DNA from: Rhizobium gallicum bv. gallicum R602sp
GTDB lineage: Bacteria; Pseudomonadota; Alphaproteobacteria; Rhizobiales; Rhizobiaceae
Reading direction: 5' to 3'
Length of the DNA: 64,000 nt
Assembly: GCF_000816845.1 (NCBI RefSeq)
Contig: NZ_CP006878.1
Span: 62,001-126,000 of the forward strand
Below, one piece after another: positions 5,685 through 25,978 of the stretch (position 1 is its first letter; the number at the start of each line of letters is the position of its first letter). The notes under the pieces were generated by a model. The model was not told where the DNA came from and ran no database searches. It worked only from the letters and a program-made list of their open reading frames with translations. Position numbers and translations under genes: made by a program.

Positions 5685-7675
5685 TTGACAGCAGCAGTTT
5701 CGATCCGCGATCTCGCGAGCGCTATCCGAGTCCTGTCAATCGACGCGGTTGAGGCCGCAAAGTCCGGGCACCCCGGAATGCCCATGGGTATGGCTGATGC
5801 GGCGGCGGTGCTGTTCGGCCGGCACCTCAAGTTCGATCCAATCGAACCTGGCTGGCCGGACCGCGATCGTTTCGTCCTGTCGAACGGCCATGGCTCGATG
5901 CTGCTCTACAGCCTTCTGCACCTCACCGGGTACGAAGACATGACGATTGAGGAGGTTCGCAACTTCCGCCAATGGGGCTCCAAAACGCCAGGTCATCCCG
6001 AATACGGCCACACCGCTGGTGTCGAGGCGACCACCGGGCCGCTCGGACAGGGGATCGCGTCGGCTGTCGGAATGGCGATCGCGGAGCGGCGCCTATCAAC
6101 GGAATTTGGCGCAGCACTTGTCGATCACCGGACCTACGTCTTCTGTGGAGATGGATGTCTCATGGAAGGCGTTGGTCAGGAAGCTGCTTCGCTGGCCGGC
6201 CACCTTCAGCTCGGCAAGTTGATCGTCCTTTACGACGATAACTCCATTACCATCGACGGCTCGACCGCAATCGCGTTTTCGGAAGATGTGCTCGCGAGGT
6301 TCGACGCATACGGATGGCACACACAGCGCGTTGACGGTCATGATCCGGACGCGATCGACGCGGCGATCTCGCAGGCGAAGGCGGAAGCATCCAGACCATC
6401 CCTCATCGCTCTGAAAACCATCATCGGATACGGCTCTCCGTCAAGGGCGGGAACAAGCTCCGTACATGGTGCACCGCTCGGCGCCAGCGAAGCCGTCGCG
6501 ACAAAGGCAGCCTATGGCTGGACGGCGGACGCTTTCGAGATTCCTGCTCCGATCCTCAAGACTTGGCGCGAAGTCGGCGCGAAGGGTGCCAAGGCGCGCA
6601 AGGACTGGCAAGCGCGGCTCGAAGCAGCGGGCGCAGATGTCAGAAGTGAGTTTCAACGCCGCACCGCCGGCTCATTGCCGGCGCGATACGAAGAAGCGGT
6701 GAACGCCGCCAAGGCAAAGCTACTCGACAAGCCGCAATCAGTGGCAACGCGTAAGGCAAGCCAGATCGCACTGGAAGCGCTGACGGAGCTGCTTCCCGAA
6801 ATGATCGGCGGTTCCGCTGACCTCACCCACTCTAATCTGACCCGGGTTCCGGCCGTGGACAGCGATTTCACCGCCGCTGCAGGCGGGCGGTATGTCAGCT
6901 ATGGCGTGAGGGAGTTCGCCATGGCCGCCGCGATGAACGGCATGGCGGCTCACGGCGGTGTCATACCCTATGGCGGCACGTTCCTTGTCTTCTCCGATTA
7001 TTGCCGCAACGCCATTCGTGTTGCGGCTCTGATGGGCGTCCGCTCTATCTTCGTGATGACGCATGACTCGATCGGTCTTGGCGAAGACGGTCCGACGCAC
7101 CAGCCCGTCGAGCATCTTGCCAGCCTCAGGGCAATGCCGAACTTGCATGTATTTCGGCCCGCCGACACCATCGAGACGCTGGAATGCTGGGATCTTGCAA
7201 TAACCAGCAAGAACACGCCGTCGGTTTTGGCGCTCTCGCGGCAGAATGTTCCGCAACTGCGCACCGAGCGTGACGGCATCGCTGCGCACGGGGAGCCTAT
7301 GTGCTGCGGGAAGCCAGCAGCGAACGTGCCGTCACAATCATCGCCACCGGAACGGAAGTCGCGCTTGCGATCCAGGCTGCCGAGGAGCTTGAGGCGAGAA
7401 ACATTCCCGCCGCTGTCGTCTCGATACCGAGCTGGGATCTCTTCGAACAGCAGCCCAAGGATTACCGCAGCTCGGTCCTCGGCAACGCGCCGCGCATTGC
7501 CGTGGAAGCGCTCTCGAAGTTCGGGTGGACCAGGTATGTCGACAGCGAAGAGGACGTGATCGGTATGTCCGGCTTCGGAGCGTCTGCGCCGGCCGAAACG
7601 CTGTACGAGCAATTCGGGATCACGCGTGACGCAATCGTCACGCGCGCCCTAGCAAGGATAAGGGGCAAGCAATGA
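5685..7675 (+). pseudogene. tkt: Transketolase, interrupted by a single-base frameshift
   Basis: Transketolase moves two-carbon ketol units between sugar phosphates with thiamine diphosphate. The reading frame breaks at the G-run 7290-7293: the first frame gives residues 1 to about 536 and the rest continues in another frame to 7675. One added G restores a protein of about 663 residues, the family length. Motifs include SGHPGMPMG (27-35), the ThDP/metal site GDG at 155-157 with Asn186, and the pyrimidine-domain [16 protein letters not shown]. The TTG at 5685 is chosen because GAGGGAGG lies just before it and family proteins start near this point. An upstream ATG at 5619 is in frame but overlaps the repeat element. 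The stop overlaps the next start (ATGA), so the locus reads as an operon gene. It may be active if the missing base is an assembly error. Confidence 0.88.
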
Positions 7676-8694
7676 GCGCGCCGGCGACACTCGGAAATGA
7701 TGAAGCGCGCGTCCAGTATGGTTCTGTCGATGCGTACCTCTCGGCCTGGGCTGGTGAGGATGTGGCCCGTCAGGGGGTGGCGGCTCTAATCAACGGTGTG
7801 TTGGATGCCGCCTGTCTTTTATCCGCGCGCATCGCAGCGGGTTCCCTGGAGGGCGATCCGGCCCGCCTTGTCGGATCAAATACCGACGGTGATGCGCAAA
7901 AGGCAATCGACATCGCGTCGCACGAGTTGTTCATCGAAATACTCGCACGCGCAGGCGCTGCCAGGGTCCTGTCCGAGGAGGCTGACGCGCCAGTCATGCT
8001 CAGTGGGCATCGTTTCGCGGTCGCGATCGATCCGATCGACGGTTCAGGCAATGTCGGGCTTGGCACGCCCGTCGGGACGATCTTCTCGATCATGCCTCTC
8101 AACGAAGCTGATGATCCCTTTTTAGCCCCTGGAAATCGACAGGCCGCGGCCGGTTATGTCTCATTCGGCAACACGGTCGATTTGGGCTTGTCGGTCGGAG
8201 AGGGTGTGCTGCTGGCGACGATGCATCCCCAAACCGGCGAGTTCCTGATCGTCAAAAGGCAGGTACAAATACCTCGCGAAACGTCCGAGCTTGCATATAA
8301 CGCTTCCAACCACCGTCACCTTCACCCTGCCATGAGCCTGTATCTTCAGGATTGTCTTGCTGGCAAGGAGGGAACGCGCGGCCGCGATTTCAACATGCGC
8401 TGGCTCGGATCGGCAGTCGGAGAGCTCCACCGGATCCTGATCAGGGGTGGTGTGTTCTTCTACGCCGGCGACAAGCGGCCGGGTTTTGAAAATGGGCGCC
8501 TTCGCCTGGTGTATGAAGCAAACCCGATCGCGTTCCTGATGGAGCAGGCCGGCGGACGGGCCACCGACGGCACGACCGCAATTCTGGACAAGATCCCAAC
8601 CTCTCACCATTGCCGCACGCCGCTCGTTTTCGGTTCGGCGACGGAGGTCGACCTGATCGCAAGCTATCTCGATTCCAATCCAACCAGCGAGTGA
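7672..8694 (+). CDS. fbp: Class I fructose-1,6-bisphosphatase (possible sedoheptulose bisphosphatase)
   Basis: The 340-residue product hydrolyses the C1 phosphate of fructose 1,6-bisphosphate and, in many bacteria, of sedoheptulose 1,7-bisphosphate. It has the metal-binding Glu pair in SEEADAP (residues 102-103) and the signature DPIDGSGNVGLGTPVGTIF from residue 120. The C-terminal segment YEANPIAFLMEQAGGRATDG is typical of class I enzymes. The start overlaps the transketolase stop. Together with the aldolase it could convert erythrose 4-phosphate plus DHAP into sedoheptulose 7-phosphate (inference from gene order). Confidence 0.93.
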   Translation: MSAPATLGNDEARVQYGSVDAYLSAWAGEDVARQGVAALINGVLDAACLLSARIAAGSLEGDPARLVGSNTDGDAQKAIDIASHELFIEILARAGAARVLSEEADAPVMLSGHRFAVAIDPIDGSGNVGLGTPVGTIFSIMPLNEADDPFLAPGNRQAAAGYVSFGNTVDLGLSVGEGVLLATMHPQTGEFLIVKRQVQIPRETSELAYNASNHRHLHPAMSLYLQDCLAGKEGTRGRDFNMRWLGSAVGELHRILIRGGVFFYAGDKRPGFENGRLRLVYEANPIAFLMEQAGGRATDGTTAILDKIPTSHHCRTPLVFGSATEVDLIASYLDSNPTSE

Positions 8695-8700
8695 CACGTC

Positions 8701-9750
8701 ATGGCCAGGATCACTCTCCGCCAGCTGCTGGATGATGCCGCCGATCACGGCTACGGCGTCCCGGCATTCAATATCAACAACATGGAGCAGGCGCTTGCCA
8801 TCATGGAAGCGGCCGACGAAACGGATTCGCCCGTCATCCTGCAGGCGAGCCGCGGGGCGCGGGCATATACTAACGACATCATGCTCAAGCACATGATGGA
8901 CGCTGTGACGGAGATCTATCCCAATATCCCCGTTTGCGTACATCTTGACCACGGAAACGAACCAAGCACCTGCGTCACTGCGATCCAGCATGGCTTTACG
9001 TCCGTGATGATGGATGGGTCGATCCGTGCCGACGGCAAAACCGCGGCGGATTGGGACTATAACGTCAAGGTCACAAAAAGCGTCAGTGAAACCGCTCATT
9101 GGGCGGGGGTTTCGGTGGAAGGAGAGCTCGGCGTCCTGGGCTCGCTTGAGACCGGCACGGGCGATGCAGAAGACGGTCATGGTGTAGAGGGCAAGCTCGA
9201 TCCGCATCAGCTTCTGACCGATCCGGAGGAAGCCGCGAAGTTCGTCGAAGAGACCAAGGTCGACGCGCTTGCCGTCGCAATGGGCACCAGCCATGGCGCC
9301 TACAAGTTCTCACGCCGACCGGACCGGGACGTGCTGGCAATGGATGTTATCGAGGCGATCCACCGGAAACTTCCAAATACCCATCTCGTCATGCACGGTT
9401 CGTCAAGCGTGCCGGAGGAGCTGCAGGAAATCTTCAATCGCTTCGGCGGGCGGATGAAGCCGACTTGGGGCGTGCCGCTCGAGGAAATACTGCGCGGCAT
9501 CCGTCATGGCGTGCGAAAGGTCAACATCGACACGGATTGCCGCATGGCAATGACCGGGCAGGTGCGCAGAGTGCTGGCCGAAGATCCGACAGAATTCGAC
9601 CCTCGCAAATATTTGAAGCCCGCAATGACGGCGCTTTCGAAGCTGTGCCGCGAAAGATTCGAAGCTTTCGGAACGGCAGGGCGCGCAAGCTCCATCAACG
9701 TTGTGCCGCTCGCGGAAATGGCGAAGCGGTATCGAGCCGGCTCGCTCTAG
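8701..9750 (+). CDS. Class II fructose-bisphosphate aldolase (Calvin-type, CbbA-like)
   Basis: The 349-residue product is a zinc-dependent aldolase. HLDHG at residues 81-85 holds the catalytic Asp and a zinc His. The glycine-rich [10 protein letters not shown] and the phosphate-binding NIDTD segment follow the class II pattern, and the length matches the Calvin-subtype enzymes that accept fructose and sedoheptulose bisphosphates. It follows the bisphosphatase by six bases and precedes the isomerases. There is no phosphoribulokinase, so the set is not a carbon-fixation operon. Confidence 0.95.
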
Positions 9751-9792
9751 TCGGCAAACAGCAATTTAAACGCAAATGTGGTGAAGCGGGAC

Positions 9793-10563
9793 ATGACCGA
9801 TAAGAAAACCCTTTGGATTGGCACTAGCTGGAAGATGAACAAGACGCTTGCCGATGCCGTGCAGTTCGCCCACGGTCTCAGGGCCGCAGACACCACGTCC
9901 CATCCGCGCATCCAGCGCTTTGTCATCCCTCCCTTCACTGTTGTCCGAGAAGTGAAGACCACGTTGGCGGGCACGTCGGTGAAGGTCGGCGCGCAGAACA
10001 TGCACTGGGACGACGAGGGCGCCTGGACGGGCGAGATTTCCCCCGTGATGCTCAAGGACTGCAGCCTCGATATCGTCGAACTTGGTCACTCCGAGAGGCG
10101 TGAACATTTTGGCGAGACGGACGTGACGGTAGGGCTGAAAGTCGAGGCGGCGGTTCGCCACGGCTTGATCCCGCTCATCTGCTTAGGGGAGACACTCGAC
10201 GAACGCGAGGCCGGGCGAGCGCGCGAGGTCCTTGAGCGCCAAGTTCGCGGCGCGTTAGGAAGCCTTTCCACCCTCCAGAAGGACAAACCCATATTGCTCG
10301 CCTATGAGCCTATTTGGGCCATTGGCGTCAATGGGATCCCCGCGACAGCGGACTACGCCGACGCCCGCCAAGCCGAGATCATTGCGTTTGCCGAAGCCGT
10401 GCTCGGCCGGCGCGTTCCCTGCCTCTACGGCGGTTCGGTCAACGCGGACAACTGCGAAGAGCTCATATCCTGCCCTCATGTCGATGGGCTGTTCATCGGC
10501 CGCTCGGCTTGGAAGATCGAGGGCTACCTCGACATCCTCGAAAAGTGCGCGGCCAAAATCTGA
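9793..10563 (+). CDS. eryH: EryH-type triose/tetrulose-phosphate isomerase
   Basis: The 256-residue product is a TIM-barrel isomerase. Lys14 (in TSWKMNKT), His99 (GHSERR) and Glu172 (YEPIWAIG) correspond to the triosephosphate isomerase active site. The usual GNWKMN is replaced by TSWKMN, with Ser for the conserved Asn, and WDDEGAWTGEISP matches the EryH branch I remember from Brucella. That branch interconverts L-erythrulose 1-phosphate and D-erythrulose 4-phosphate. The ATG at 9793 matches the short family N-terminus; a GTG lies 15 bases upstream. Its pairing with the next gene repeats the eryH-eryI pair of erythritol catabolism, but no erythritol kinase or dehydrogenase genes are here. Confidence 0.9.
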   Translation: MTDKKTLWIGTSWKMNKTLADAVQFAHGLRAADTTSHPRIQRFVIPPFTVVREVKTTLAGTSVKVGAQNMHWDDEGAWTGEISPVMLKDCSLDIVELGHSERREHFGETDVTVGLKVEAAVRHGLIPLICLGETLDEREAGRAREVLERQVRGALGSLSTLQKDKPILLAYEPIWAIGVNGIPATADYADARQAEIIAFAEAVLGRRVPCLYGGSVNADNCEELISCPHVDGLFIGRSAWKIEGYLDILEKCAAKI

Positions 10564-10575
10564 GGAGTGATGAAG

Positions 10576-11031
10576 ATGAAAGTTGCAGTAGCAGGCGACA
10601 GCGCGGGCGAAGGCCTCGCTAAAGTCCTCGCCGATTATCTCAAGCACCGTTTCGAGGTGTTCGAAGTCTCCAGGACCGATGCCGGTCTCGACGATTTCTA
10701 TGCGAACCTCTCCGACAGGGTCGCCAACGGAGTGCTCGACGGCACCTACGACAAGGCCATCCTGGTGTGCGGCACCGGGATCGGCGTTTGCATTTCGGCG
10801 AACAAAGTGCCGGGTATAAGGGCAGCCCTCACACACGATACCTACTCCGCCGAGCGGGCGGCGTTATCGAACAACGCCCAGATCATTACCATGGGCGCCC
10901 GCGTCATTGGATCGGAACTTGCGAAGACGATCGTCGACTCCTTCCTCGCCCAGACGTTCGACGAGAATGGTCGCTCGGCGAGCAATGTTGCCGCGATCGA
11001 CGAGGTCGATACGAAATACCACGCTCGCTAG
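10576..11031 (+). CDS. eryI: RpiB-family sugar-phosphate isomerase, EryI type
   Basis: The 151-residue product belongs to the RpiB/LacAB family. Cys65 with GTGIG (66-70) forms the active-site loop, and [23 protein letters not shown] is highly characteristic. In erythritol and apionate pathways this branch isomerises D-erythrulose 4-phosphate to D-erythrose 4-phosphate. The ATG at 10576 is preferred because GAGGAG lies about eight bases before it; earlier GTG and ATG codons are too close to that site. Only 12 bases separate it from the EryH gene. It is the last gene of the rightward operon begun by transketolase. Confidence 0.92.
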
Positions 11032-11212
11032 CGGAGAACATGTGCAAGCATCTGCTCGCGGTCGACGCGCCAGGCGCAATCAGCCTGGCGATTGAGCGTT
11101 TTCCGGCAGTTTCCAGAACCAGCAATCAGGCCGGGCGGCTTACGGTATCCGGGGCTTGGCGTCCGCCTTCAGATGCAGCGCCAGTGATGATCGCAGTGCG
11201 ACCTGCGCGCTG

Positions 11213-11914
11213 TCATTTCAACAGGGACGTGCGGAAGTGTTCCATGTTTTCCTCGACGCTCTCGCGGCTGAGGTCACCGGTCTTTCTGTCCCGGATCATC
11301 TCAAACATGTGTTCGTGGAGATCGACTGCGCGCCATTTGCCACTGACCTCCAGCGATTTTTGCACCCAAGGCGCGACCATCGTCAGCACGAAGTCGGCGA
11401 TCACGACGATCAACGGGTTTCCGGCAGCTTTGTATATTGCTCGGTGGAAATCGAGGTCGGCCTTGAGGAGATCTTCGATCGCGGAGTTCGCATCCTCCGA
11501 CAGCCTTTTTAGTCGGTCGATGCACTCTCTCATTGCGGCGAGGTCTTCGTCCGTACGCCGCAGGGACGCGAGTTCTGAACAGTTGCGGTCGAAAACATAT
11601 CGCAGCTCCATCAGCATCTCAGGCGTCGAGCTCTGAAGATAGAGCTGAAACATCGCGAGCGGCATCGCCGGAAGGCCTTCGTCCTTACGGATGTAATTTC
11701 CAAAGCCATGCCGCGTCTCGACAAGACCCGACACCGCGAGCGTCTTGATCGCCTCTCGGATTGGAGTGCGGCTGATGCCGAGAAGCTGGGCCAGCTCCTT
11801 TTCATTGGGAAGCTTGTCACCAGGCCCAAGGTTGCCTTTGGCAATTTCGCCCGTAATGTAGTCGAGCGCTATGTCCAGCCGGCTTGGGATTTTCTTTGGC
11901 TCAACAGACAGCAT
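11213..11914 (-). CDS. GntR family (FadR subfamily) transcriptional regulator
   Basis: The 233-residue product has the winged helix-turn-helix signature KLPNEKELAQLLGISRTPIREAIKTL at residues 34-59 and an FCD domain with LKADLDFHRAIYKAAGNP (near 145-162) and a later DLHEHMFEMI that supplies metal-binding histidines. The gene is convergent with eryI and lies 100 bp before the SDR gene, which reads the same way. The copy of the repeat element at 11944-11961 lies about 30 bp upstream of its start, which suggests autoregulation. It is the most likely regulator of the whole GGTAT regulon, spanning transketolase to the third aldo/keto reductase (inference). Confidence 0.93.
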   Translation of the reverse strand: MLSVEPKKIPSRLDIALDYITGEIAKGNLGPGDKLPNEKELAQLLGISRTPIREAIKTLAVSGLVETRHGFGNYIRKDEGLPAMPLAMFQLYLQSSTPEMLMELRYVFDRNCSELASLRRTDEDLAAMRECIDRLKRLSEDANSAIEDLLKADLDFHRAIYKAAGNPLIVVIADFVLTMVAPWVQKSLEVSGKWRAVDLHEHMFEMIRDRKTGDLSRESVEENMEHFRTSLLK

Positions 11915-11943
11915 TCCTGGTCACGCTCCAATCAGAAATCGAG

Positions 11944-11961
11944 AAGGTACGAGGTCATACC
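11944..11961. promoter_or_regulatory. GGTAT-type inverted repeat in front of the GntR gene
   Basis: AAGGTACGAGGTCATACC is an inverted repeat (GGTA-N8-TACC) and matches the copy at 23413 (read on the other strand) at 16 of 18 positions. Its place, 30 to 47 bp upstream of the regulator start codon, fits an autoregulatory operator. Confidence 0.65.
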
Positions 11962-12014: not shown

Positions 12015-12809
12015 TTATTCGCTGATTTGTCCCAGCCGCTTCGAGGCTTTCGGATCGAATGGGAACATGAGGCCAGCGGCCAGGAAGCCGCCGTCGACGT
12101 TCAGGGTGTGCCCCGTGATATAGGCTGCATCGTCGCTCGCCAGGAACACTGCGGCGTCAGCGATTTCCGATGGTTCGCCATAACGGCGTTGCGGAACGAG
12201 CCGATGATAGGCGTCACGCGTTTCGACCGTGTGCATGACTTTTGAGACCTCGGTCAATATCGGACCCGGTGCGATGTTATTCACGTTGATTCCCGATTCG
12301 GCGAGTTCCACGGCCATCACCTTCGTGAGAAGTTCGACGCCGGCCTTCGAGGCACCATAGGCCGAACGCCCGACACCGCCCTTTTGACCGGACAAGGAAG
12401 CGATATTGATGATTCTCCCGTAACCCTTGGCGGCCATGATCCGAGCGAAGGCTTGCGCCACGAGGAATGTTCCGGTCAGATTGATCCGGACGACGCGTTC
12501 GAATTCCTCTCTTGAGCTTTCGAGAAACAGAGTGGTTGCGCCCACGCCAGCGTTGTTGACGAGTATGTCGACCGTGCCGAACCGGCCAATCGTTTCCCTA
12601 ACGATCGTCTCAACGTCTTCGTTGACGGAAATATCAGCGCGGACGGCGAAAGCCCGCTCGCCAAGCCGCTCGGCGGCATCGTTCGCCACTTCCAGATCGC
12701 GGTCGACGATAACGACATTTGCGCCTTCGCGAACATAGGCTTCAGCGATCGCCAGTCCGATCCCCCGGCCAGCGCCTGTCACCACGGCAGTGCGTCCAGA
12801 AAGTCTCAT
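12015..12809 (-). CDS. Short-chain dehydrogenase/reductase
   Basis: The 264-residue product is a classical SDR with TGAGRGIG at 11-18, NNAG at 85-88, a catalytic Ser near 138 and YGASK (Tyr151, Lys155). The C-terminus (GHTLNVDGGFLAAG) is typical of the family. GGAGG seven bases before the ATG at 12809 fixes the start; an upstream in-frame ATG at 12899 would cross the repeat element and is rejected. It is divergent from the DUF1537 kinase gene and shares its promoter region. It probably oxidises or reduces an acid sugar or ketose of the pathway, but the substrate is not readable. Confidence 0.93.
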   Translation of the reverse strand: MRLSGRTAVVTGAGRGIGLAIAEAYVREGANVVIVDRDLEVANDAAERLGERAFAVRADISVNEDVETIVRETIGRFGTVDILVNNAGVGATTLFLESSREEFERVVRINLTGTFLVAQAFARIMAAKGYGRIINIASLSGQKGGVGRSAYGASKAGVELLTKVMAVELAESGINVNNIAPGPILTEVSKVMHTVETRDAYHRLVPQRRYGEPSEIADAAVFLASDDAAYITGHTLNVDGGFLAAGLMFPFDPKASKRLGQISE

Positions 12810-12831: not shown

Positions 12832-12866
12832 GATATGAGGTATAAGGTATAAGGTATGACCTTGAC
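12832..12866. promoter_or_regulatory. GGTAT-type repeat element between SDR and kinase genes
   Basis: Three consecutive GGTAT units (GAGGTATAAGGTATAAGGTAT) run into GACCTTGAC. This is the longest array of the element. It lies between divergent genes, about 23 bp from the SDR start and 95 bp from the kinase start, so a bound regulator could control both. Confidence 0.65.
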
Positions 12867-15260: not shown

Positions 15261-15280
15261 ATGAGGTATGACGTCATATC
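15261..15280. promoter_or_regulatory. GGTAT-type element abutting the ATPase start codon
   Basis: ATGAGGTATGACGTCATATC ends one base before the ATG of the second ABC ATPase gene. It contains the palindrome TGACGTCA within GGTA/TATC arms. The position leaves no room for an ordinary ribosome-binding site, so the operator, start point and translation start are crowded together. Confidence 0.55.
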
Positions 15281-17905: not shown

Positions 17906-18904
17906 ATGCAGATGTTTAGGAGGAGCCTGCTCAGGGCAGGTGCGGGACTGGCACTCGCTGCGGTGACACTGACAGGACCGAAACTGGCGTTCGCGGAAGA
18001 CAAGATCCGCATCGCGGCGTTGTCGTTCGGCGAGTCCGGCGAATACATGAAGGCTTGGTCGACGGAAATCCAGAACCATCCCGCCGTCAAGTCGGGCGAG
18101 GTCGAGATCACCGTTTTCGACGGCAAGTACGACCCGCTGACACAGTCGAACCAGATCGACACTGCGATCACCCAACAGTTCAACGCGATCATCATGTCAC
18201 CGTTCGACCTTGAGGCCTCGGCGCCGCCGATCGAAAAGGCCGCCGAAGCGAATATCCCGCTGATCGTATCGGCGCTCAAGACGAAGTCGACGAAATACAC
18301 CGCGTCCATCATCGTTAACGACACCGAAGGCGGCCGGATCATCGCTGAGGAACTCGCCAAGCGCCTTCCGAACGGCGGCAACGTCGTCCTCATGGAGGGT
18401 CCGATCGGCCAGTCGGCCCAGATCGAGCGCCGCGCAGGCATCGACGCTGGTCTCGCCAAGTTCCCGAACCTCAAGCTCATCGAAGACAAGACAGGCAACT
18501 GGAGCCGCGCCGAGGGTCAGGCGCTCATGGAGAACTGGTTGCTCGCGCACCCGGGTGAGATCAACGGCGTCCTTGCGGAAAACGACGAGATGGCGCTGGG
18601 CGCGATCGAAGCCATGAAGAGCGCCGGCATCGATCTCAAGACCGTTCCCGTTCTTGCGATCGACGGCATCCCGGACGCAAAGCGCGCCGTGAAGAAGGGC
18701 GAGATGGCGGTCAGCCTCTACAAGTACGCCCGCGCCGAAGGCCAGGGCGCGGTCGACCTCGCACTGCGGGCGATCAAGGGCGAGAGCTACAAGCCGCAGT
18801 CCGAAATCTGGGGCTCGCTGATGGAATGGAAGGGCGGCACCGAGAAGGACTACGTCGTGCCGTGGCTCGTGCTCGATTCCACCAATGTCGAGAAGTACAT
18901 GTAA
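17906..18904 (+). CDS. Sugar ABC transporter substrate-binding protein (second system)
   Basis: The 332-residue product has a signal peptide starting MQMFRRSLLR with a cleavage site after AFA (near residue 31) and a Peripla_BP_4 ribose-binding-like fold. Typical segments are QFNAIIMSPFDLEAS, NGGNVVLMEGPIGQSAQIERRAG and VLAENDEMALGAIEAMK. It delivers the substrate to the periplasmic face of the permease. It is placed third in the transporter unit, upstream of the sugar-oxidising aldo/keto reductase and the RuBisCO-like protein, which makes their substrate the likely imported sugar (inference). Confidence 0.94.
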   Translation: MQMFRRSLLRAGAGLALAAVTLTGPKLAFAEDKIRIAALSFGESGEYMKAWSTEIQNHPAVKSGEVEITVFDGKYDPLTQSNQIDTAITQQFNAIIMSPFDLEASAPPIEKAAEANIPLIVSALKTKSTKYTASIIVNDTEGGRIIAEELAKRLPNGGNVVLMEGPIGQSAQIERRAGIDAGLAKFPNLKLIEDKTGNWSRAEGQALMENWLLAHPGEINGVLAENDEMALGAIEAMKSAGIDLKTVPVLAIDGIPDAKRAVKKGEMAVSLYKYARAEGQGAVDLALRAIKGESYKPQSEIWGSLMEWKGGTEKDYVVPWLVLDSTNVEKYM

Positions 18905-18940: not shown

Positions 18941-18968
18941 TTACACCAGGGAAATAGGATCGACCATC

Positions 18969-20003
18969 ATGTTGAAGAGAAAAGTTGGAAAGACCGATGT
19001 GACGCTGACCTCGCTAGGGCTGGGTACCTCGCCGCTCGGCGGATGCAATGTCGATGTGAGCTTCCAGACTTTCGAGGCGGTCGTCCTCAAGGCATACGAC
19101 TTGGGTGTCCGCTATTTCGACACCGCGCCCCTTTACGGCCTTGGAAAGTCCGAGCATTCCCTCGGCCATGTCCTTCGCAACAACGATCTCATCGGCAAGG
19201 TCGTGGTCAGCACCAAGGCGGGGCGGATACTCAAGCCGGAAAGCCGCGCAAAGCGCGCCGAGAGCCTTTACGGCATCGACTGGGTGAAGGCGCTGCCATT
19301 CGTCGACGACTACGATTATTCCTATGACGGCATCATGCGCGCTTTCGAAGATAGCCAGCAGCGCCTGGGTATGGACCACATTGACATCCTCTATCTCCAC
19401 GACGTCAGTGGCGAATGGCATCGCGAGGCTTATGACACCCACCTGTCGGCGCTGAGATCGAGCGGCTACAAGGCGTGTGACGAGCTGCGCAGCACGGGCT
19501 CCGTGAAGGCCATCGGCCTCGGCGTCAACGAGACGGCGTCGGTCCTGCAGGTGGCGGAGGAATTTGACCTCGACTGCTCCATGGTCGCCGGGCGCTACAC
19601 CCTGCTCAACCACGGTGCTCTCGACCATTTCTATCCAGAAATGCAGCGTCGCGGCATCGGTATCATTGCGGCTGGCATCTACAACTCCGGCATCCTCGCC
19701 GAGGGCAGCAAGTCGATGACAACCACCCGCACCTACGATTGCCAGCCCGCGCCTGAAGCGATCGTTCGCAAGGTCGAGGCGCTCGAAGCCGTCTGCGAGC
19801 GCCATGGCGTCTCGCTTGCGACTGCAGCGACACAATTTGTCTACGCACATCCTGCAGTGACCGCGGTGGTGCAGGGAGCGCTGGCGCCCGAACACGTCGC
19901 CGCAAACGTCGCCGCGATCTCGACGCCGGTTCCGGCTGCGTTCTGGGCCGACCTGAAGTCGTCCGGTCTCATCCCTGAAGCCGCGCCAGTTCCGGAGGCA
20001 TGA
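18969..20003 (+). CDS. Aldo/keto reductase (D-threo-aldose/L-fucose 1-dehydrogenase-like)
   Basis: The 344-residue product is an aldo/keto reductase with Asp51 and Tyr56 (YFDTAPLYGLG), Lys83 (STKAG) and His in ILYLHD as the catalytic tetrad. FEDSQQRLGMDHIDILYLHD matches the branch holding D-threo-aldose 1-dehydrogenase, L-fucose dehydrogenase and pyridoxal 4-dehydrogenase, which oxidise a sugar hemiacetal to a lactone with NAD(P)+. The ATG at 18969 follows a weak purine-rich site. Its stop overlaps the region of the RuBisCO-like gene start. It is a clear paralogue of the enzyme at 23604. It probably makes the aldonolactone that starts the pathway (inference). Confidence 0.92.
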   Translation: MLKRKVGKTDVTLTSLGLGTSPLGGCNVDVSFQTFEAVVLKAYDLGVRYFDTAPLYGLGKSEHSLGHVLRNNDLIGKVVVSTKAGRILKPESRAKRAESLYGIDWVKALPFVDDYDYSYDGIMRAFEDSQQRLGMDHIDILYLHDVSGEWHREAYDTHLSALRSSGYKACDELRSTGSVKAIGLGVNETASVLQVAEEFDLDCSMVAGRYTLLNHGALDHFYPEMQRRGIGIIAAGIYNSGILAEGSKSMTTTRTYDCQPAPEAIVRKVEALEAVCERHGVSLATAATQFVYAHPAVTAVVQGALAPEHVAANVAAISTPVPAAFWADLKSSGLIPEAAPVPEA

Positions 20004-20008
20004 TAGCG

Positions 20009-21292
20009 ATGGATCTGGCTGAGCGCAGGCCCTCGGACATTCTGGTCACCTATCGGATTGAGACCGCCGGGAGCGCTGAGGCCTTGGCGGTCAAGATCGG
20101 AAGCGACCAGTCGACGGGTACATTTGTTGACTTGCCCGGAGAGACGCCGCAACTGAAGGCGCGCGCGGCCGCGCGCGTGGTCGCTTTCGAGAAACTGGAC
20201 TCTGTCGAGGTTCCCTCGCTCCCTGCAGCGGGCGAAGTCTTTAACCGGGCGGAGACAACAATCGCCTATCCCCTGGAGGCCGTCGGAACTGACCTTGCGG
20301 CAGTCACCACGGTTGCATTGGGCGGGGTCTGGTCGATCAAGGAATTCACCGGGCTGAGGGTCGTCGGCCTGCAGCTGCCTCCAGAGTTTGAAGGCGTCTA
20401 CCCGGGGCCTCAATTTGGGATCGAAGGCTCCCGGCGTCTGACCGGCGTCTACAATAGGCCAATCATCGGCACGATCATCAAGCCCGCGCTCGGCCTCACC
20501 CCGGACGAAACGGCGCAGGTGGTTGCTGAACTCGTCGCGTCCGGTGTCGACTTCATCAAGGACGACGAGAAACTGATGTCGCCACCATACTCCTCGTTGG
20601 AGGCGCGCGTGAAAGCGATCATGCCGATCATCCGGGATCAGGAGCAGCGCACCGGCAAGAAGGTGATGTATGCCTTCGGCATTTCCGACGTCGATCCCGA
20701 CGAGATGGTTCGCAAGCACGACCTGGTCGTGCGCGAGGGTGGAAACGCCGCCGTCATCAACATCAATTCGATCGGCATGGGCGCTTTTCTGTTCCTGCGT
20801 CGGCGGTCGTCCCTTGTCTTGCACGCCCATCGCAACGGCTGGGATCTTCTCACCCGACATCCTGGTCTTGGGTTCGATTTCTCGGTCTACCAACAGCTTT
20901 GGCGACTTCTCGGCGTCGACCAATTCCAGATCAACGGCATTGCCGCCAAATACTGGGAGCCGGACGCCTCTTTCGTTCAGTCGTTCCATGATCTCCAGAA
21001 ACCGATCTTCAGTGCTGCCGACCGCCCGCTACCGGTCGTTTGTTCGGGTCAATGGGGTGGACAGGCGCCTGAGACCTATCGAAGGACGGAGCAGACGCTT
21101 GACCACCTTTACCTTTGTGGTGGTGGCGTCGTCAGCCATCCCGGCGGGCCGTCGGCTGGTGTAAGAGCGGTCCGTGCGGCCTGGGATGCCGCGGTCGCCG
21201 GAATCGATCTCCATGAATATGCCAAATCTCATCCAGAGCTGGCGCAGTCGCTCGCCAAGTTCGGCTCTAAAACCGTATCAGAAGGAAGATGA
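20009..21292 (+). CDS. RuBisCO-like protein (form IV), candidate 3-oxo acid-sugar phosphate decarboxylase or transcarboxylase
   Basis: The 427-residue product aligns with the RuBisCO large-subunit fold. Lys158 in TIIKPALGL matches Lys175 of spinach; DFIKDDEK carries Lys184, Asp186 and Glu187, matching the carbamylated Lys201 and the Mg ligands; LHAHR supplies His274 and Arg275; CGGGVVSHPGG keeps a phosphate site. The loop-6 region (QINGIAAKYWE) and the Asn123 region (GGVWSIKEFTG) differ, so it is not a carbon-fixing enzyme. Known relatives beside DUF1537 kinases decarboxylate or hydrolyse 3-oxo-isoapionate 4-phosphate. EryH and EryI nearby favour decarboxylation to L-erythrulose 1-phosphate (inference). 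GGAGG is ten bases before the ATG at 20009; an ATG at 20000 overlaps the previous stop. Confidence 0.93.
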   Translation: MDLAERRPSDILVTYRIETAGSAEALAVKIGSDQSTGTFVDLPGETPQLKARAAARVVAFEKLDSVEVPSLPAAGEVFNRAETTIAYPLEAVGTDLAAVTTVALGGVWSIKEFTGLRVVGLQLPPEFEGVYPGPQFGIEGSRRLTGVYNRPIIGTIIKPALGLTPDETAQVVAELVASGVDFIKDDEKLMSPPYSSLEARVKAIMPIIRDQEQRTGKKVMYAFGISDVDPDEMVRKHDLVVREGGNAAVININSIGMGAFLFLRRRSSLVLHAHRNGWDLLTRHPGLGFDFSVYQQLWRLLGVDQFQINGIAAKYWEPDASFVQSFHDLQKPIFSAADRPLPVVCSGQWGGQAPETYRRTEQTLDHLYLCGGGVVSHPGGPSAGVRAVRAAWDAAVAGIDLHEYAKSHPELAQSLAKFGSKTVSEGR

Positions 21293-21295
21293 CAG

Positions 21296-22276
21296 ATGGA
21301 ATATCGTCAGCTTGGCCGGTCAGGTCTGAAAATTTCGCAACTGGTTCTTGGTTGCATGAGTTTCGGCGTCGCCGATCGCGGCAACCATGCTTGGACCTTG
21401 TCCGAAGACGACAGTAGGCCCTTTATCAAAGAGGCACTCGAACAGGGCATAAACTGCTTCGACACGGCCAATGCCTACTCGGACGGCACCAGCGAGGAGA
21501 TCGTCGGCAAGCTGCTCAGGGAGATGGTGCAGCGTGATGAGGTTGTCATTGCCACCAAGGTCTACGGCAAGATGCGCAATGGAGCGAATGCGGTCGGACT
21601 TTCCCGCAAGGCAATCATCGCGGAGGCTGAGGCCAGCCTCAAGCGGCTGGCGACCGACTACATCGACCTCTACCAAATTCATTTCTGGGACAATTCGACC
21701 CCGATCGAAGAGACGCTGGAAGCGCTGACCGATCTCGTTCGAAGCGGCAAGGTTCGCTACATCGGAGCCAGCAATTGTTACGCATGGCAATTTGCGCGCG
21801 CGCTCTACAAGTCGGACGCTGCCGGATGGTCGCGTTTCGTTTCGATGCAAGCTCAGATGAACCTCCTTTATCGCGAGGAAGAGCGGGAGATGTTGCCGCT
21901 CTGTAAAGCTGAAGGGGTGGGGATCATCGCGTTCAGTCCGCTGGCTCGCGGGCGCCTCAGCCGGCCTTGGGAGGAAAGCAGTTTGAGGTCCGAGACCGAC
22001 AATGTCACCGCTCGGTTCTACGGTCACGCGGACGAGGCGGATCGCCGCGTCGTAGACGTCGTCGCAAAGATTGCAGACGACAAGAATGTTCCACGATCCC
22101 TCGTTGCGATGGCGTGGCTTAACACAAAGGCGGGCGTGACGGCTCCTATAATCGGCGCCACGAAGCTACAGCATCTGAAGGATGCCGTCGCTTCCTTGGC
22201 CGTCAAGCTAAGCGACGACGAGGTCCGCGAACTCGAGGAGCCATACGTGCCGCACAGCGTAGTCGGCTTGAACTGA
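21296..22276 (+). CDS. Aldo/keto reductase (YajO/Tas-like)
   Basis: The 326-residue product is an NADPH-type aldo/keto reductase with the tetrad Asp and Tyr in CFDTANAYSDG (near 47-57), Lys in ATKVYGK and His in LYQIHFWD. Later PIIGATKLQHLKDA is the coenzyme phosphate site. It belongs to a different branch from the two threo-aldose-type enzymes here and is closer to general aldehyde or ketose reductases. It starts four bases after the RuBisCO-like stop with AAGGAAG upstream, and so is cotranscribed. It may interconvert a ketose or aldehyde intermediate; the substrate is unknown. Confidence 0.92.
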   Translation: MEYRQLGRSGLKISQLVLGCMSFGVADRGNHAWTLSEDDSRPFIKEALEQGINCFDTANAYSDGTSEEIVGKLLREMVQRDEVVIATKVYGKMRNGANAVGLSRKAIIAEAEASLKRLATDYIDLYQIHFWDNSTPIEETLEALTDLVRSGKVRYIGASNCYAWQFARALYKSDAAGWSRFVSMQAQMNLLYREEEREMLPLCKAEGVGIIAFSPLARGRLSRPWEESSLRSETDNVTARFYGHADEADRRVVDVVAKIADDKNVPRSLVAMAWLNTKAGVTAPIIGATKLQHLKDAVASLAVKLSDDEVRELEEPYVPHSVVGLN

Positions 22277-22395
22277 TTTGGCTCGGCGGGACGACGTTGA
22301 TACTGTCAGCAGGCACGCGGAGCCGGGCCTCCTGAACCAATGGCATTGGCCGTATCGATCTCTGCTCCGTTCCGGAACCAGCGCGAGGAAAAAAG

Positions 22396-23352
22396 ATGAC
22401 CGCCACCCGTCGTTTTGACGTCAGCGACAGCGCGATTGAAGCTGCCGCCCGGCTCATGCGAAATGGCGAAGTTGTCGCGTTTCCGACGGAGACGGTGTAC
22501 GGGCTCGGCGCGGACGCCAGCAGCCCCGCCGGGATAGAGCGCATTTATGAAGCCAAGGGACGCCCGCGGCATAACCCGCTCATTATCCACGTTTCGGACG
22601 TGGAAATGGCGCGCAGGATGGCACATTTCAATCCGGAGGCAGAGTTGGCTGCTGCCAGCTTTTGGCCGGGACCTCTGACATTGCTCCTGCCAAAGCGGGA
22701 AGACGCGGGGCTCGCAACCGCAGTTACCGCGGGCATGAAAAATGTCGCAATCCGATTTCCGTCGTCAAGCGTCGCCCAGCGGCTGATCCGAGCCGTCGGA
22801 TTTCCGGTGGCAGCGCCTTCGGCCAATCGCTCCGGGAAGGTCACGTCGACGCGCTTTGCGGAGGTTGCCCGCCAGTTGGACGGACGAATTTCGGGGATCG
22901 TAGAAGAAGACACATGCTATCATGGCCTTGAATCGACCATTCTATCTTTGGTCGGTTCTCCGACCATTCTACGCCACGGGTCGGTTACACGGGAGGCGCT
23001 CGAAGCATTGCTCGGTCCGATTGACGAGGACAGCGCTCCCCAGAAAGTCTCGGCTCCAGGCCAGCTAAAGAGCCATTATGCTCCGGAAGCCGCAGTTCAG
23101 ATGAATGTCGATCGTCCTTCCGGCAACATGGTCTGGGTCGGTTTCGGTCCAGAAAGCGAGGGCTGTCAGTTCACGCTGTCTTTTTCTGGTGACCTTCATG
23201 AAGCTGCCCGCAACCTCTACACCGTCATGAGTGAGGCCGACGCTTCGGCTGGGCCAAATGATGTAATTGCGTTCGCTCCAATCCCGCTGACTGGCCTTGG
23301 ATGGGCGATCAATGATCGTCTGCGAAGGGCCGCGGCACCGCGCCCAGCTTAG
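22396..23352 (+). CDS. Sua5/YciO/YrdC family L-threonylcarbamoyladenylate synthase
   Basis: The 318-residue product has the YrdC domain (VAFPTETVYGLGADA near 34-48, KGRPRHNPLIIHV, APSANRSGKVTST) and a C-terminal Sua5 domain beginning after GQLKSHYAPEAAV. The family makes threonylcarbamoyl-AMP from threonine, bicarbonate and ATP for the t6A37 base of tRNA. GAGG lies before the ATG. Its place between catabolic genes is odd for a housekeeping function, and it may be a second copy or a passenger. It is 120 bp after the aldo/keto reductase and in the same direction. Confidence 0.9.
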   Translation: MTATRRFDVSDSAIEAAARLMRNGEVVAFPTETVYGLGADASSPAGIERIYEAKGRPRHNPLIIHVSDVEMARRMAHFNPEAELAAASFWPGPLTLLLPKREDAGLATAVTAGMKNVAIRFPSSSVAQRLIRAVGFPVAAPSANRSGKVTSTRFAEVARQLDGRISGIVEEDTCYHGLESTILSLVGSPTILRHGSVTREALEALLGPIDEDSAPQKVSAPGQLKSHYAPEAAVQMNVDRPSGNMVWVGFGPESEGCQFTLSFSGDLHEAARNLYTVMSEADASAGPNDVIAFAPIPLTGLGWAINDRLRRAAAPRPA

Positions 23353-23412
23353 GCTAACAATTTTCAAATAGTTCGAAAATCTGGATGCCGTTGCATAAAA
23401 AAACTTGCTCGA

Positions 23413-23440
23413 ATAGGTATGACCTTATACCTTACACCTT
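23413..23440. promoter_or_regulatory. GGTAT-type inverted repeat upstream of the third aldo/keto reductase
   Basis: GGTATGACCTTATACC is an inverted repeat with arms GGTA and TACC, followed by a further TTACACCTT half-site. It lies about 165 bp before the reductase ATG in a 251-bp region without another gene. It ties this downstream unit to the transketolase and kinase promoters. Confidence 0.65.
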
Positions 23441-23603
23441 GCCGATTGAGGAGTCGCTGCGGGGGTTCATCAAGAGTTTTGGTGGCGCTAGGGGCAAACG
23501 CCTCAACGTTGCATGCAAGTGGACCGGGCCTTACCCGAACAATGACGGCATCGCTGGGGTCAGATCCTCGCGACGCCTCCCATCGACATCTAAGGATTAC
23601 CAC

Positions 23604-24647
23604 ATGACCGAACTCGAAATTAGACCGCTCGGAAAAAGCAAAGTGCAGGTGACTTCGCTGGGGCTTGGCACTGTGCCGCTCTCTGGCTTCAACGCGGATG
23701 TCTCCTATGACGAATTCGAAGCAACGATCCTCGCCGGGTACGCGGCCGGAATCCGCTACTTCGATTGCGCGCCGATGTACGGCTTTGGCAAGTCGGAGCA
23801 TTATCTTGGCCATGCCCTCCGGGCGAACAAGCTGCGCGAAAACGTGGTGGTGAGCACAAAGGTCGGTCGCGTATTGAAGCCCGCCAGCAGGACGAAGAAG
23901 CTTGAGACCGTCTACGGCATAGAGTGGATCGACCCGCTTCCGTTTCTCGACACCTACGACTACACATATGACGGCGTGATGCGCGCATTCGAAGATAGCC
24001 AACAGCGCCTCGGCCTAGACTATATTGACGTTCTTCTCGTGCATGACGTTGGTCGGGCATGGCACGGCGACCAAAGCGAGTTCTACTGGAATCAGCTGCG
24101 GGCCTCAGGTTACAAGGCACTGGACGAACTTCGCTCCAGCGGAGCCGTTTCGGCCATTGGTTTGGGTGTCAACGAGACCGAGTCCGTCGTGGGTGTCGCC
24201 CGTGAATTTCCGATCGACTGCTCGTTGATCGCGGGCCGCTACACCCTTTTGAACCATGCCCCGCTTGAGGCCGCGTTCGACGAGTTGCTCCAGCGGAACG
24301 TCTCCGTGATCGCCGGCGGGATCTTCAATTCCGGGATCCTGGCGACCGGCATAAGCGGTCCTGCGGCCACTTACGATTACGGCAAGGTTCCTGCGGCCGT
24401 CGTGGAAAAGGTCAACGCCATCGAGAGCATTTGTTCGAGATATGCGGTGAGCTTGCCTGCAGCGGCGATGCAATTCGTCTATGCGCATCCGGCAGTGGCG
24501 ACGCTGGTCATGGGGGCAAAAAGCGCATCCGAAGTCGATCAGAACGTCAAGGCGATCAACGAGACAATACCCGCTGCATTTTGGGACGCTTTGATTGAAG
24601 CGAACCTTCTTCCGTCGAATGCTCCGCTGCCGATGGCTGCACGATGA
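23604..24647 (+). CDS. Aldo/keto reductase (D-threo-aldose/L-fucose 1-dehydrogenase-like), paralogue
   Basis: The 347-residue product shares the architecture of the enzyme at 18969: YFDCAPMYGFGKSEH, STKVGRVLKP, FEDSQQRLGLDYIDVLLVHD and GRYTLLNHAPLE all have close equivalents there. It is probably an NAD(P)-dependent sugar 1-dehydrogenase giving a lactone. The ATG at 23604 is chosen over upstream codons because the open frame before it crosses the regulatory element and lacks family similarity. The stop overlaps the start of the next small gene (ATGATG), a sign of coupling. Two such enzymes may handle two epimers or both anomers. Confidence 0.92.
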   Translation: MTELEIRPLGKSKVQVTSLGLGTVPLSGFNADVSYDEFEATILAGYAAGIRYFDCAPMYGFGKSEHYLGHALRANKLRENVVVSTKVGRVLKPASRTKKLETVYGIEWIDPLPFLDTYDYTYDGVMRAFEDSQQRLGLDYIDVLLVHDVGRAWHGDQSEFYWNQLRASGYKALDELRSSGAVSAIGLGVNETESVVGVAREFPIDCSLIAGRYTLLNHAPLEAAFDELLQRNVSVIAGGIFNSGILATGISGPAATYDYGKVPAAVVEKVNAIESICSRYAVSLPAAAMQFVYAHPAVATLVMGAKSASEVDQNVKAINETIPAAFWDALIEANLLPSNAPLPMAAR

Positions 24648-25147
24648 TGGCGAGCGGAGGCACCGTTTTCGGCGGCTTCCGCTGTGAAGCGCTCGTGGGC
24701 TCGGTTCCATCGCCGGATGCACGCGCATGCCTCGAGGCGCTCGTCAGGACATATGGCGAGCTCCTCGCGATCTATTCCTTCATGCATATGGCATTGAAGG
24801 AGAAGAGCATGCGCCTCTTGATGGGCGAACTCGCCGATCGCGCCTCAGAGATAAAGCGATCCGTCCGTCACTCGCTCGCGGGCTCACCCGTTCTCGCGGG
24901 GCAGGGCCACGCACTCTCCCATCTTGGACGGGCAGATCGCCTGCTTGTCGAGGCGGAGGAGCACCTGCAGCGCGGTGTCTTGGTTTCGAATGCGGCCCTG
25001 CTGGGGTTGCTTTCAAACGCGGCGATCGAGCTGAAACGATCGGCCGCCATCTTAGGCACGTCGACCTTCGACACGACAGCATGCTGTGGAGGGTCCCTTG
25101 GACATGGGGAGGAAGACCATGGGAACGCATTCGATCTGGGTGCTTGA
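24644..25147 (+). CDS. Hypothetical protein coupled to aldo/keto reductase
   Basis: The 167-residue product is not recognised. It is mainly helical, with conserved-looking acidic and basic helices (EIKRSVRHSL, RLLVEAEEHLQRGVL, AAIELKRSAAIL) and a late double Cys (ACCGG). There is no signal peptide or membrane span. Its ATG overlaps the reductase stop, and its 3' end overlaps the start of the metallo-hydrolase gene by about 29 bp, so the three genes form one tight unit. A structural or accessory role for the reductase or hydrolase is possible, but nothing in the sequence proves it. Confidence 0.6.
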   Translation: MMASGGTVFGGFRCEALVGSVPSPDARACLEALVRTYGELLAIYSFMHMALKEKSMRLLMGELADRASEIKRSVRHSLAGSPVLAGQGHALSHLGRADRLLVEAEEHLQRGVLVSNAALLGLLSNAAIELKRSAAILGTSTFDTTACCGGSLGHGEEDHGNAFDLGA

Positions 25148-25978
25148 ATACTCTCGAAGCCCAGTGCACCCAGTCAGCGGGGTTTTTTACGGCGCCCATA
25201 ATCAGGGCACGATGAACCTGCCGTTCGCATACATTCTCATCAAGACAGGAGATGCAGTCGTTCTGGTTGATGCCGGTCACGACGCCGCCGATTTCGGAGG
25301 CCAGATCGCCAATTCGATTGGCGTTACCGGTTGGACGCCTCCGGAAATCGTTCTCGGGGAATGCGGGATCAGGCCCCAGGACGTCACGCATGTCATCCTC
25401 ACGCACGCGCACTTCGATCACATTGGCGGCCTAAAGTTCTTCCCAAATGCTAAGATTTTCATTCAGAAGAAAGAATTGGAATCCTGGATGTGGATTCTGG
25501 CAAAGGGTCGGCGCTTCCGTTCATTGCAGGCCGGACTGAATCCGGCGGATATCTGACCCGGGCAAACATCGAAGGCCGCCTGGAACTGGTGGAGGGAGAG
25601 CGGGAAAACCTGGTGCCAGGCGTTCATGTCTATCCGGCATTCGACACCCATACCGCAGGATCGCAATATGTGGTGGTGGAGACCGGCGGTGGAGACGGCA
25701 AGTTTATCCTGTCCGGCGACGTCATCTACACCTACAGCAACCTCACGGGTGAGGACGCCACCGATCCCTGCTTTGTGCCGCCGGGCCTTGCCAATGGCAG
25801 CCAGTCACGTCTGATCGAGTCCGCCGAGGAGATGCTCAAAATCGTTGGTATGAACGAACGACGAATTGTTCCCATGCACGAGGAGCAGCTGTCAAAAATC
25901 TATCCGTCGCGCCTGACGGCTCGCCAGCTCATGCTCGTGGAGATTTGTGTGGCCGACGGAGACGTATCAAGAGTTTGA
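25119..25978 (+). pseudogene. Metallo-beta-lactamase-fold hydrolase (AHL-lactonase-like), frameshifted
   Basis: Family members are zinc hydrolases, including N-acyl-homoserine and other lactonases. HAHFDH (His96, His98, Asp100, His101) is the dinuclear zinc motif, and the second half has LSGDVIYTYSN with the bridging Asp. The frame breaks at the G-run 25505-25507, and one added base yields about 286 residues, a normal length. GGGGAGGA just before the ATG at 25119 supports the start. The gene follows a lactone-forming aldo/keto reductase, so it may open the sugar lactone (inference). If the frameshift is real, the protein would be cut after about 146 residues and inactive. Confidence 0.82.

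Follow-up and report, generated by a model that had tools for sequence, protein, structure and literature searches.

A plasmid-like replicon of Rhizobium gallicum carries genes for the probable catabolism of a branched, apiose-like plant sugar or its acid through a RuBisCO relative acting as decarboxylase, by an entry that seems to differ from the known apiose pathway

In tetronate catabolism (LtnD/OtnK/OtnC) a dehydrogenase, a DUF1537 kinase and a decarboxylase act in sequence, and in D-apionate breakdown ApnO converts D-apionate to 3-oxo-isoapionate by an oxidation with a carbon shift. The D-apionate pathway with OiaK and OiaX is credited to Carter et al. (2018, Nat Chem Biol 14:696), as cited in PMC6302742. 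A RuBisCO-like protein (RLP) has also been placed in a D-hamamelose pathway of Ochrobactrum anthropi (Kim, Lim and Lee 2018, cited in PMC8914248), where, according to that citation, 3-phosphoglycerate and glycolate are said to be involved. The part of PMC8914248 that deals with rlp mutants gives growth phenotypes in Rhizobium etli CFN42 and R. phaseoli CIAT652; the carbon-fixation values printed there for CIAT652 and its mutant contradict its text. Here we analyse a block of genes around an RLP in R. gallicum bv. gallicum R602sp. The window, meaning the whole stretch of 64,000 nucleotides analysed, covers bases 62001-126000 of contig C2 (NZ_CP006878.1), which has 203,748 bases in a 7.3-Mb genome of four contigs. 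The block probably serves to catabolise a branched plant sugar resembling apiose, or a sugar acid of that kind, by means of a decarboxylating RuBisCO relative, and it includes Calvin-type enzymes for the four-carbon product; the entry of the sugar seems to differ from that of the known apiose pathway.

Like the D-apionate pathway, the block has an OiaX-type RLP, a DUF1537 kinase and sugar transport of the ATP-binding cassette (ABC) type, and homologues of EryH and EryI occur in many loci of both kinds. It differs in that no ApnO, ApnL or Gfo/Idh dehydrogenase was found in it; it has a short-chain dehydrogenase (SDR), three aldo/keto reductases (AKR1 to AKR3), a metallo-beta-lactamase (MBL)-fold protein and a diverged kinase, and its aldolase, bisphosphatase and transketolase stand under the same operator as the rest. 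With the Ochrobactrum D-hamamelose pathway, as far as the citing paper describes it, the block shares an RLP in a branched-sugar pathway, but its OiaX family, EryH/EryI homologues and regeneration genes point to decarboxylation. The logic of dehydrogenase, kinase and decarboxylase resembles that of tetronate catabolism, and an otnK-otnC pair adjoins the block on the R. gallicum plasmid, but an SDR stands where the LtnD-type dehydrogenase would be, and an RLP where OtnC would be. With the Calvin-Benson-Bassham operon the block has homologues of aldolase, bisphosphatase and transketolase in common, whereas neither phosphoribulokinase nor true RuBisCO was found among its genes. The block as first read is confirmed, conservation and central enzymes included; the strongest additions made here are an operator in common, which joins the regeneration set and a distant TRAP transporter to one regulon, and an SDR in the place of ApnO.

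The entry step was examined by comparing 20 loci of the window's type (window-type) with 63 canonical loci, the latter being those of the best 80 of 411 by RLP similarity, minus the window-type loci and L037, plus L084 from the same genome. Canonical loci have ApnO (53/63), ApnL (52/63) and a Gfo/Idh homologue (61/63), and none has the SDR, counted at 40% identity or more over 80% of its length. The SDR occurs in 19 of the 20 window-type loci, ApnO in one and ApnL in none; L019, the sole window-type locus without the SDR, has it further out in what is apparently the same genome (L117). No ApnO (PF16896) and no Gfo/Idh dehydrogenase were found in the block, no block protein matched ApnL (NF049900), and the single PF16896 match of the genome lies at C4:2018434. 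The SDR gene is divergent from the kinase gene. Among 16 further RLP loci, chosen from 297 RLP-bearing plasmid records, the SDR was found in nine and ApnO in seven, with both in one (Cupriavidus, L126) and neither in one (L134). Identity of the window SDR reaches 54-55% with its counterparts in Cupriavidus and Bradyrhizobium elkanii, against 32-35% for three unrelated SDRs. A related TRAP large subunit is found in six of the nine SDR-type plasmid loci, and the one encoded elsewhere on C2 shares 63-70% of its residues with the four that were compared, which neighbour SDR-type RLP genes in Bradyrhizobium, Cupriavidus, Azospirillum and Caballeronia. On these data a unit of SDR, kinase and RLP, often with TRAP, is a second locus type that includes the window cluster, where AKRs, MBL protein and ABC transporter are added upstream and regeneration genes downstream.

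A search of the intergenic regions of the window revealed a repeated operator with the consensus AGGTATRAGGTMWK, present in five intergenic regions of the block (Table 1). The window has nine matches at no more than two mismatches, where 1.11 are expected, and nine were reached in none of 100 dinucleotide shuffles; a match at 10812, inside rpiB, is probably due to chance. Tests outside the window carry more weight, since the motif was learned from the window itself. All six perfect matches in the 7.3-Mb genome lie on C2; the block accounts for four of them, and the other two, at C2:29818-29838 (L156:9819-9839), precede a DctQM-DctP TRAP transporter. Allowing one mismatch gives 17 matches over the genome and nine for the reversed pattern, so that one-mismatch matches elsewhere are near chance. 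At a matrix threshold of 12.5 bits, the 63 canonical loci (1.32 Mb) have four matches in total and each of the 20 window-type loci has 4 to 12, with four in L037 and five in B. elkanii. Matches in window-type loci mostly fall in the corresponding intergenic regions; the region between AKR2 and tkt contains sites in Sinorhizobium fredii NXT3 (L095), genome G202 (L120) and Agrobacterium salinitolerans (L093), as does the region between AKR2 and the bisphosphatase in A. tumefaciens (L094). No operator was found in L084, the canonical locus of the same genome. An early guess at the motif, TATCAGATNNGACC, gave only chance-level matches and was discarded. Beside the TRAP genes at C2:29818-29838 there are a xanthine-dehydrogenase-type molybdoenzyme gene and an MBL-fold gene, and the same neighbours lie by the A. 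salinitolerans and B. elkanii clusters.

The RLP scores 759 bits against NF042437 (OiaX, 3-oxo-isoapionate-4-phosphate decarboxylase), above the curated cut-off of 700, and is, as judged by sequence, orthologous to OiaX. Identity as the MtnW enolase of methionine salvage was rejected, with 114 and 149 bits on two models whose cut-offs are 513.6 and 409. In a tree of 80 rows, made by a quick method with SH-aLRT support only, after removal of a duplicate and of seven sequences nearly identical to the window protein, most window-type RLPs nest inside OiaX, within a set of 17 rows (support 96) that includes three canonical Aurantimonadaceae proteins; rows L037 and L088, labelled type B beforehand, were placed elsewhere. 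The original prediction had put the RLP with the D-apionate type and not with the methylthioribulose enolase branch, and both the model scores and the tree bear it out. The alignment keeps the RuBisCO residues K175, K201, D203, E204, H294, R295, K334, S379 and the glycine pair (spinach numbering), among them the RuBisCO-type lysines and the metal-site residues; by the same numbering, H327 is replaced by Gln and N123 by Gly in canonical and window-type RLPs alike. A second OiaX of the genome, at C4:2015134 in L084, also exceeds the cut-off and is accompanied by ApnO and an OiaK-like kinase. Genes for a RuBisCO large chain and a phosphoribulokinase-family protein lie outside the block, at C4:1.65 Mb. 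No phosphoribulokinase, as had been stated, and no true RuBisCO occur among the called genes of the block, and carbon fixation by the block was rejected, the genome having its cbb-like operon (L085) elsewhere. That operon contains a LysR gene, a bisphosphatase, a phosphoribulokinase-family gene, a transketolase, an aldolase and a RuBisCO large chain.

The RpiB homologue exceeds the cut-off of the curated EryI model (Table 1). The TIM homologue (triosephosphate isomerase family) is 78% identical to the TIM at C4:606872 and 36% to that at C1:1960520, which is presumably the housekeeping enzyme. Canonical loci have a TIM homologue in 24 of 63 cases (43-79% identity), an RpiB homologue in 27 (58-85%), the aldolase in four (Mesorhizobium; 72-73%) and the bisphosphatase in none. 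TIM and RpiB occur together in 15 of the 20 window-type loci, where aldolase, bisphosphatase and transketolase were judged only if the stretch extends far enough. EryI, EryH, a DeoR regulator, aldolase, bisphosphatase and transketolase form a set next to the RLP genes of A. salinitolerans, S. fredii NXT3 and G202, and A. tumefaciens HAMBI 105 has the same set by its RLP cluster without the transketolase; gene order differs in these Agrobacterium and Sinorhizobium loci and identity is 55-95%. At stretch edges there are fragments of a transketolase in L018 (89% over 16%) and of a bisphosphatase in L020. The linkage is thus conserved in diverged and rearranged loci, and the operator also precedes the transketolase; for these reasons it is very probable that the regeneration genes are part of the pathway, as had been proposed for EryH/EryI and the three Calvin-type enzymes.

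In the explanation preferred here, the block would produce 3-oxo-isoapionate from a branched sugar of five carbons, or from the acid of that sugar, with no part played by ApnO, with decarboxylation by the OiaX-type protein and regeneration to follow, and would form one catabolic regulon under its GntR regulator, which we infer to read the operator; we give this whole explanation a probability of about 55%. The ABC transporter would import the sugar and the TRAP transporter elsewhere on C2 the acid. AKR1 and AKR3 would oxidise the sugar to a lactone, and the MBL-fold lactonase would open its ring to give isoapionate, 2-C-(hydroxymethyl)tetronate; the source could be the corresponding aldose, or the polyol apiitol, through the AKR and lactonase steps. 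The SDR would oxidise C3 of isoapionate to 3-oxo-isoapionate, the DUF1537 kinase would phosphorylate this at position 4, and the RLP would decarboxylate 3-oxo-isoapionate 4-phosphate to L-erythrulose 1-phosphate and CO2. EryH and EryI would isomerise L-erythrulose 1-phosphate to D-erythrose 4-phosphate, from which the aldolase, with dihydroxyacetone phosphate, and the bisphosphatase would make sedoheptulose 7-phosphate, and transketolase would lead to pentose phosphates. EryH acts on L-erythrulose 1-phosphate, and for this reason the acid decarboxylated is taken to be 3-oxo-isoapionate 4-phosphate, with the carboxylate on C3 of the ketose. Isoapionate is proposed because an SDR is expected only to dehydrogenate, and oxidation of isoapionate at C3 gives the same product as ApnO. 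The sequence itself supports the gene content, the orthology of the RLP, the conserved linkage, the common operator, the tie to TRAP and the lack of ApnO and ApnL in the block, whereas what the SDR does, which sugar is used and in what order the AKRs and the lactonase act are inferences. The scheme assigns no step to AKR2, the DUF849 protein, the Sua5 paralogue or the small ORF. The earlier idea of entry through the AKRs survives in part: they and the lactonase are kept as makers of the acid, whereas the entry step now proposed is oxidation by the SDR, which had gone unnoticed, as had the absence of ApnO.

Several observations weigh against this explanation. Five of the nine SDR-type plasmid loci had been sources of the SDR queries, which leaves four independent ones (L125, L129, L137 and L138; 65-85%), and three further RLP-companion SDRs are 38-44% identical to the window SDR, that of Caballeronia being lowest at 38%. 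Many of the 20 window-type loci are near-copies. The other plasmid RLP loci L124-L138 have one weak operator match each in L124 and L128 and none in the other 13; the operator therefore marks the window type and not SDR-type loci generally. With an identity of only 32% to its canonical counterpart, the kinase could have a different substrate, and we know of no documentation of free isoapionate in plants or soil. In B. elkanii the upstream genes occur, but neither Sua5 nor the regeneration set accompanies them, and the regeneration set was likewise not found by the clusters of L010, L011 and L019/G328 in the stretches examined. ApnO can also stand close to the regulon. In L095 and L120 the operator is directly upstream of ApnO, which lies directly behind the cluster, and in L117 ApnO and the SDR gene point away from each other, the operator lying in the gap close to the start of the SDR. 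Because ApnO is beside the operator in these three loci, D-apionate may be a second or even the main acid of the regulon. ApnO is found somewhere in 17 of 21 carriers or records of window-type or hybrid loci, that is, in 17 of 18 genomes (not G407; G328 and G395, both counted, look like one genome) and in none of three plasmid records.

One alternative is a second route for D-apiose that joins the chemistry already known. AKR1 would make D-apionolactone, the MBL protein would open it, an ApnO encoded elsewhere in the genome would form 3-oxo-isoapionate and the SDR would have a side role; the three relatives with ApnO beside the operator, the 17 carriers or records containing it and the one ApnO of the present genome, in its canonical locus, are in its favour. 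We regard it as unlikely, though it is the alternative that deserves most attention, for the stretches of 19 of 20 window-type loci contain no ApnO, the canonical locus L084 has no operator, and SDR, kinase and RLP recur without ApnO in the stretches of eight plasmid loci. ApnO is in any case frequent in the genus (122/148); at this rate its co-occurrence with window-type clusters neither supports nor refutes, and was dropped as evidence. The acid might instead be hamamelonate (2-carboxy-D-arabinitol), a sugar acid of legume leaves. It would be made from D-hamamelose by AKR and lactonase, the SDR would give 3-keto-2-carboxyarabinitol and the kinase would add a 5-phosphate, so that the RLP would decarboxylate the six-carbon intermediate of RuBisCO itself minus one phosphate, while the TIM and RpiB homologues would work on pentuloses. 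Such chemistry fits AKR, lactonase, SDR, kinase and RLP equally well, several carriers were isolated from beans, and beans make 2-carboxyarabinitol 1-phosphate; a D-hamamelose-pathway RLP has moreover been published in O. anthropi (Kim 2018, as cited in PMC8914248). A C5 acid is indicated, on the other hand, by the EryI score above its cut-off, by EryH/EryI being common to canonical loci that yield a C4 product, by the nesting of the RLP in OiaX and by ApnO beside the operator in three relatives, and we consider hamamelonate improbable. The corollary that a bean-symbiont replicon runs the RuBisCO carboxylation step in reverse for nutrition, with 3-keto-2-carboxyarabinitol 5-phosphate losing CO2 via the RLP, is more improbable still. 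The block aldolase and transketolase are 72% and 56% identical to their counterparts in the cbb-like operon of the genome, and the regeneration operon could be a mere neighbour, a relic of such an operon put beside the RLP cluster by plasmid shuffling, as the clusters lacking the module in their stretches would suggest. We give this little credence, because the operator precedes tkt here and lies in the AKR2 intergenic region of the Sinorhizobium and Agrobacterium loci, and because the linkage survives rearrangement in diverged loci.

AKR1, AKR2, AKR3, MBL, small open reading frame (ORF), Sua5, DUF849, kinase and binding protein are each present in all 20 window-type loci, and AKRs, MBL, small ORF and Sua5 in none of the 63 canonical ones. 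The order of the cluster genes in Rhizobium differs from that in Agrobacterium, Ensifer/Sinorhizobium and Pararhizobium loci. At E <=1e-120, AKR1 was found in four of 394 genomes of the family and two of 397 of the order, the present genome being counted in both; in the second genome of the order-wide set (G816), 40 kb show an AKR (56%) and only distant transporter matches. The upstream genes of B. elkanii accompany a pyruvate kinase, an RLP that at 481 bits does not reach the OiaX cut-off, and an OiaK-like kinase (448 bits), which suggests that these genes deliver the same intermediate to another RLP lineage. The loci L088, L126, L133 and L138 have eno or pyk beside the other RLP lineage and would fit a product entering at 3-phosphoglycerate, as with RLPs of the transcarboxylase/hydrolase type; a passage of PMC6302742 attests to the existence of the transcarboxylase/hydrolase type.

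The explanation preferred here, with the SDR at the entry, would make the block a likely second, ApnO-free entry to RuBisCO-like decarboxylation chemistry, occurring with two RLP lineages, in which one operator ties together uptake of sugar and acid, the RLP and a private Calvin-type regeneration set. It would aid substrate assignment for many RLP genes (297 plasmid records), often named just RuBisCO-like, and it indicates that bean rhizobia feed on branched sugars of plants. We found no description of an SDR-type entry or of such a regulon in the open literature on apiose, apionate, hamamelose and RuBisCO-like proteins, which does not show its absence from print.

Plasmid pRgalIE4872a of the bean-nodule isolate R. 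gallicum IE4872, typed as conjugative by PLSDB, matches positions 5600-27300 at 99.8% identity, and eight further Rhizobium and Sinorhizobium plasmid records, among them R. phaseoli, R. etli bv. mimosae, R. acidisoli and S. fredii GR64, match the same region over its full length at 91-95%; C2 is treated as plasmid-like because of these whole-block matches. The genes and operator copies are listed in Table 1. Every enzyme that the original prediction had named is there (DUF1537 kinase, RLP, EryH and EryI types, aldolase, bisphosphatase, transketolase, DUF849 protein, a lactonase candidate and sugar transport), with three AKRs instead of the two it had counted; it had overlooked or misjudged the divergent SDR, the GntR regulator, the Sua5 paralogue, the small ORF and two broken frames (tkt and MBL). 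Compared with IE4872, in which both genes are annotated whole, tkt is short of four bases and the MBL gene of seven at the points given in the table. Both look broken in the present genome, through either mutation or assembly error.

Table 1. Genes and operator copies of the block, in window coordinates; gene families were assigned with NCBIfam and Pfam.
Feature	Position	Strand	Remarks
Two overlapping operator copies	5601..5621	+	upstream of transketolase operon; perfect matches
tkt, transketolase	5685..7559	+	frame shifts near 7278, final ~95 residues out of frame
Class I fructose/sedoheptulose bisphosphatase	7672..8694	+	putative sedoheptulose activity
Class II aldolase	8701..9750	+	TIGR01521
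TIM homologue, EryH type	9793..10563	+	
RpiB homologue, EryI type	10576..11031	+	NF051858 256 bits, cut-off 240
GntR/FCD regulator	11213..11914	-	likely operator reader; operator precedes own gene
Operator copy	11945..11958	+	upstream of gntR
SDR, proposed isoapionate 3-dehydrogenase	12015..12809	-	
Operator copies	12838..12858	+	between SDR and kinase genes
DUF1537 four-carbon acid sugar kinase, type B	12961..14313	+	OiaK model 282 bits, cut-off 700
DUF849 protein	14324..15211	+	closest PDB chains are cis-epoxysuccinate hydrolases
Operator copy	15264..15277	+	upstream of ABC transporter
CUT2-type sugar ABC transporter, ATP-binding protein	15281..16813	+	
ABC permease	16900..17814	+	
ABC substrate-binding protein	17906..18904	+	
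AKR1, aldo/keto reductase	18969..20003	+	paralogue of AKR3, about 56%
RLP, putative OiaX-type decarboxylase	20009..21292	+	
AKR2, aldo/keto reductase	21296..22276	+	different subfamily
Sua5/YrdC (threonylcarbamoyl-AMP synthase) paralogue	22396..23352	+	
Operator copies	23415..23439	-	upstream of AKR3-small ORF-MBL
AKR3, aldo/keto reductase	23604..24647	+	
Small conserved ORF	24644..25147	+	no Pfam match
MBL-fold lactonase-like gene	25119..25978	+	frame broken near 25550

The DUF1537 kinase falls below the cut-off of the OiaK model, as does the canonical-locus kinase of the same genome (457 bits); its identity is 50-54% with the kinases compared from diverged window-type loci, and 32-36% with further kinases linked to RLPs. 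The DUF849 protein was correctly noticed, but its reading has changed: the cis-epoxysuccinate hydrolases score 290 and 286 bits and the next PDB chain, a keto-acid cleavage protein, 89, and a plain beta-keto-acid cleavage enzyme was accordingly rejected. The protein keeps the Asp at which the two cis-epoxysuccinate hydrolases of solved structure are not alike in sequence. Behind ApnO, L117 has another DUF849 gene, of which L095 shows a fragment in the same place. AKR1 has no PDB relatives at E <=1e-30. The PDB chains closest to the ABC substrate-binding protein are 4rsm, 4rs3 and 5hko, whose ligands we take to be polyols; they are not decisive for the substrate. The small ORF has invariant His89, His93, Asp143, Cys147 and Cys148, with 24-96% identity to the first of 19 sequences, and its product looks like a metal-binding protein. 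The Sua5 paralogue, absent from the B. elkanii stretch, has a Sua5-like match elsewhere in the same genome, on C1, and a Sua5/YciO-family gene is also present in the Cupriavidus locus L126; a purely speculative role for the paralogue would be to activate the lysine of the RLP. Beyond the MBL gene, a DeoR regulator frame (26470-27243) is open in the window; IE4872 has no annotated gene there and its frame differs by one base. On the other side, a tetronate-type module on the minus strand (L086:2770-13714 and window 1-5328) directly adjoins the block in R. gallicum and comprises otnC, otnK, an aldehyde dehydrogenase, an epimerase-family protein and a sugar ABC transporter.

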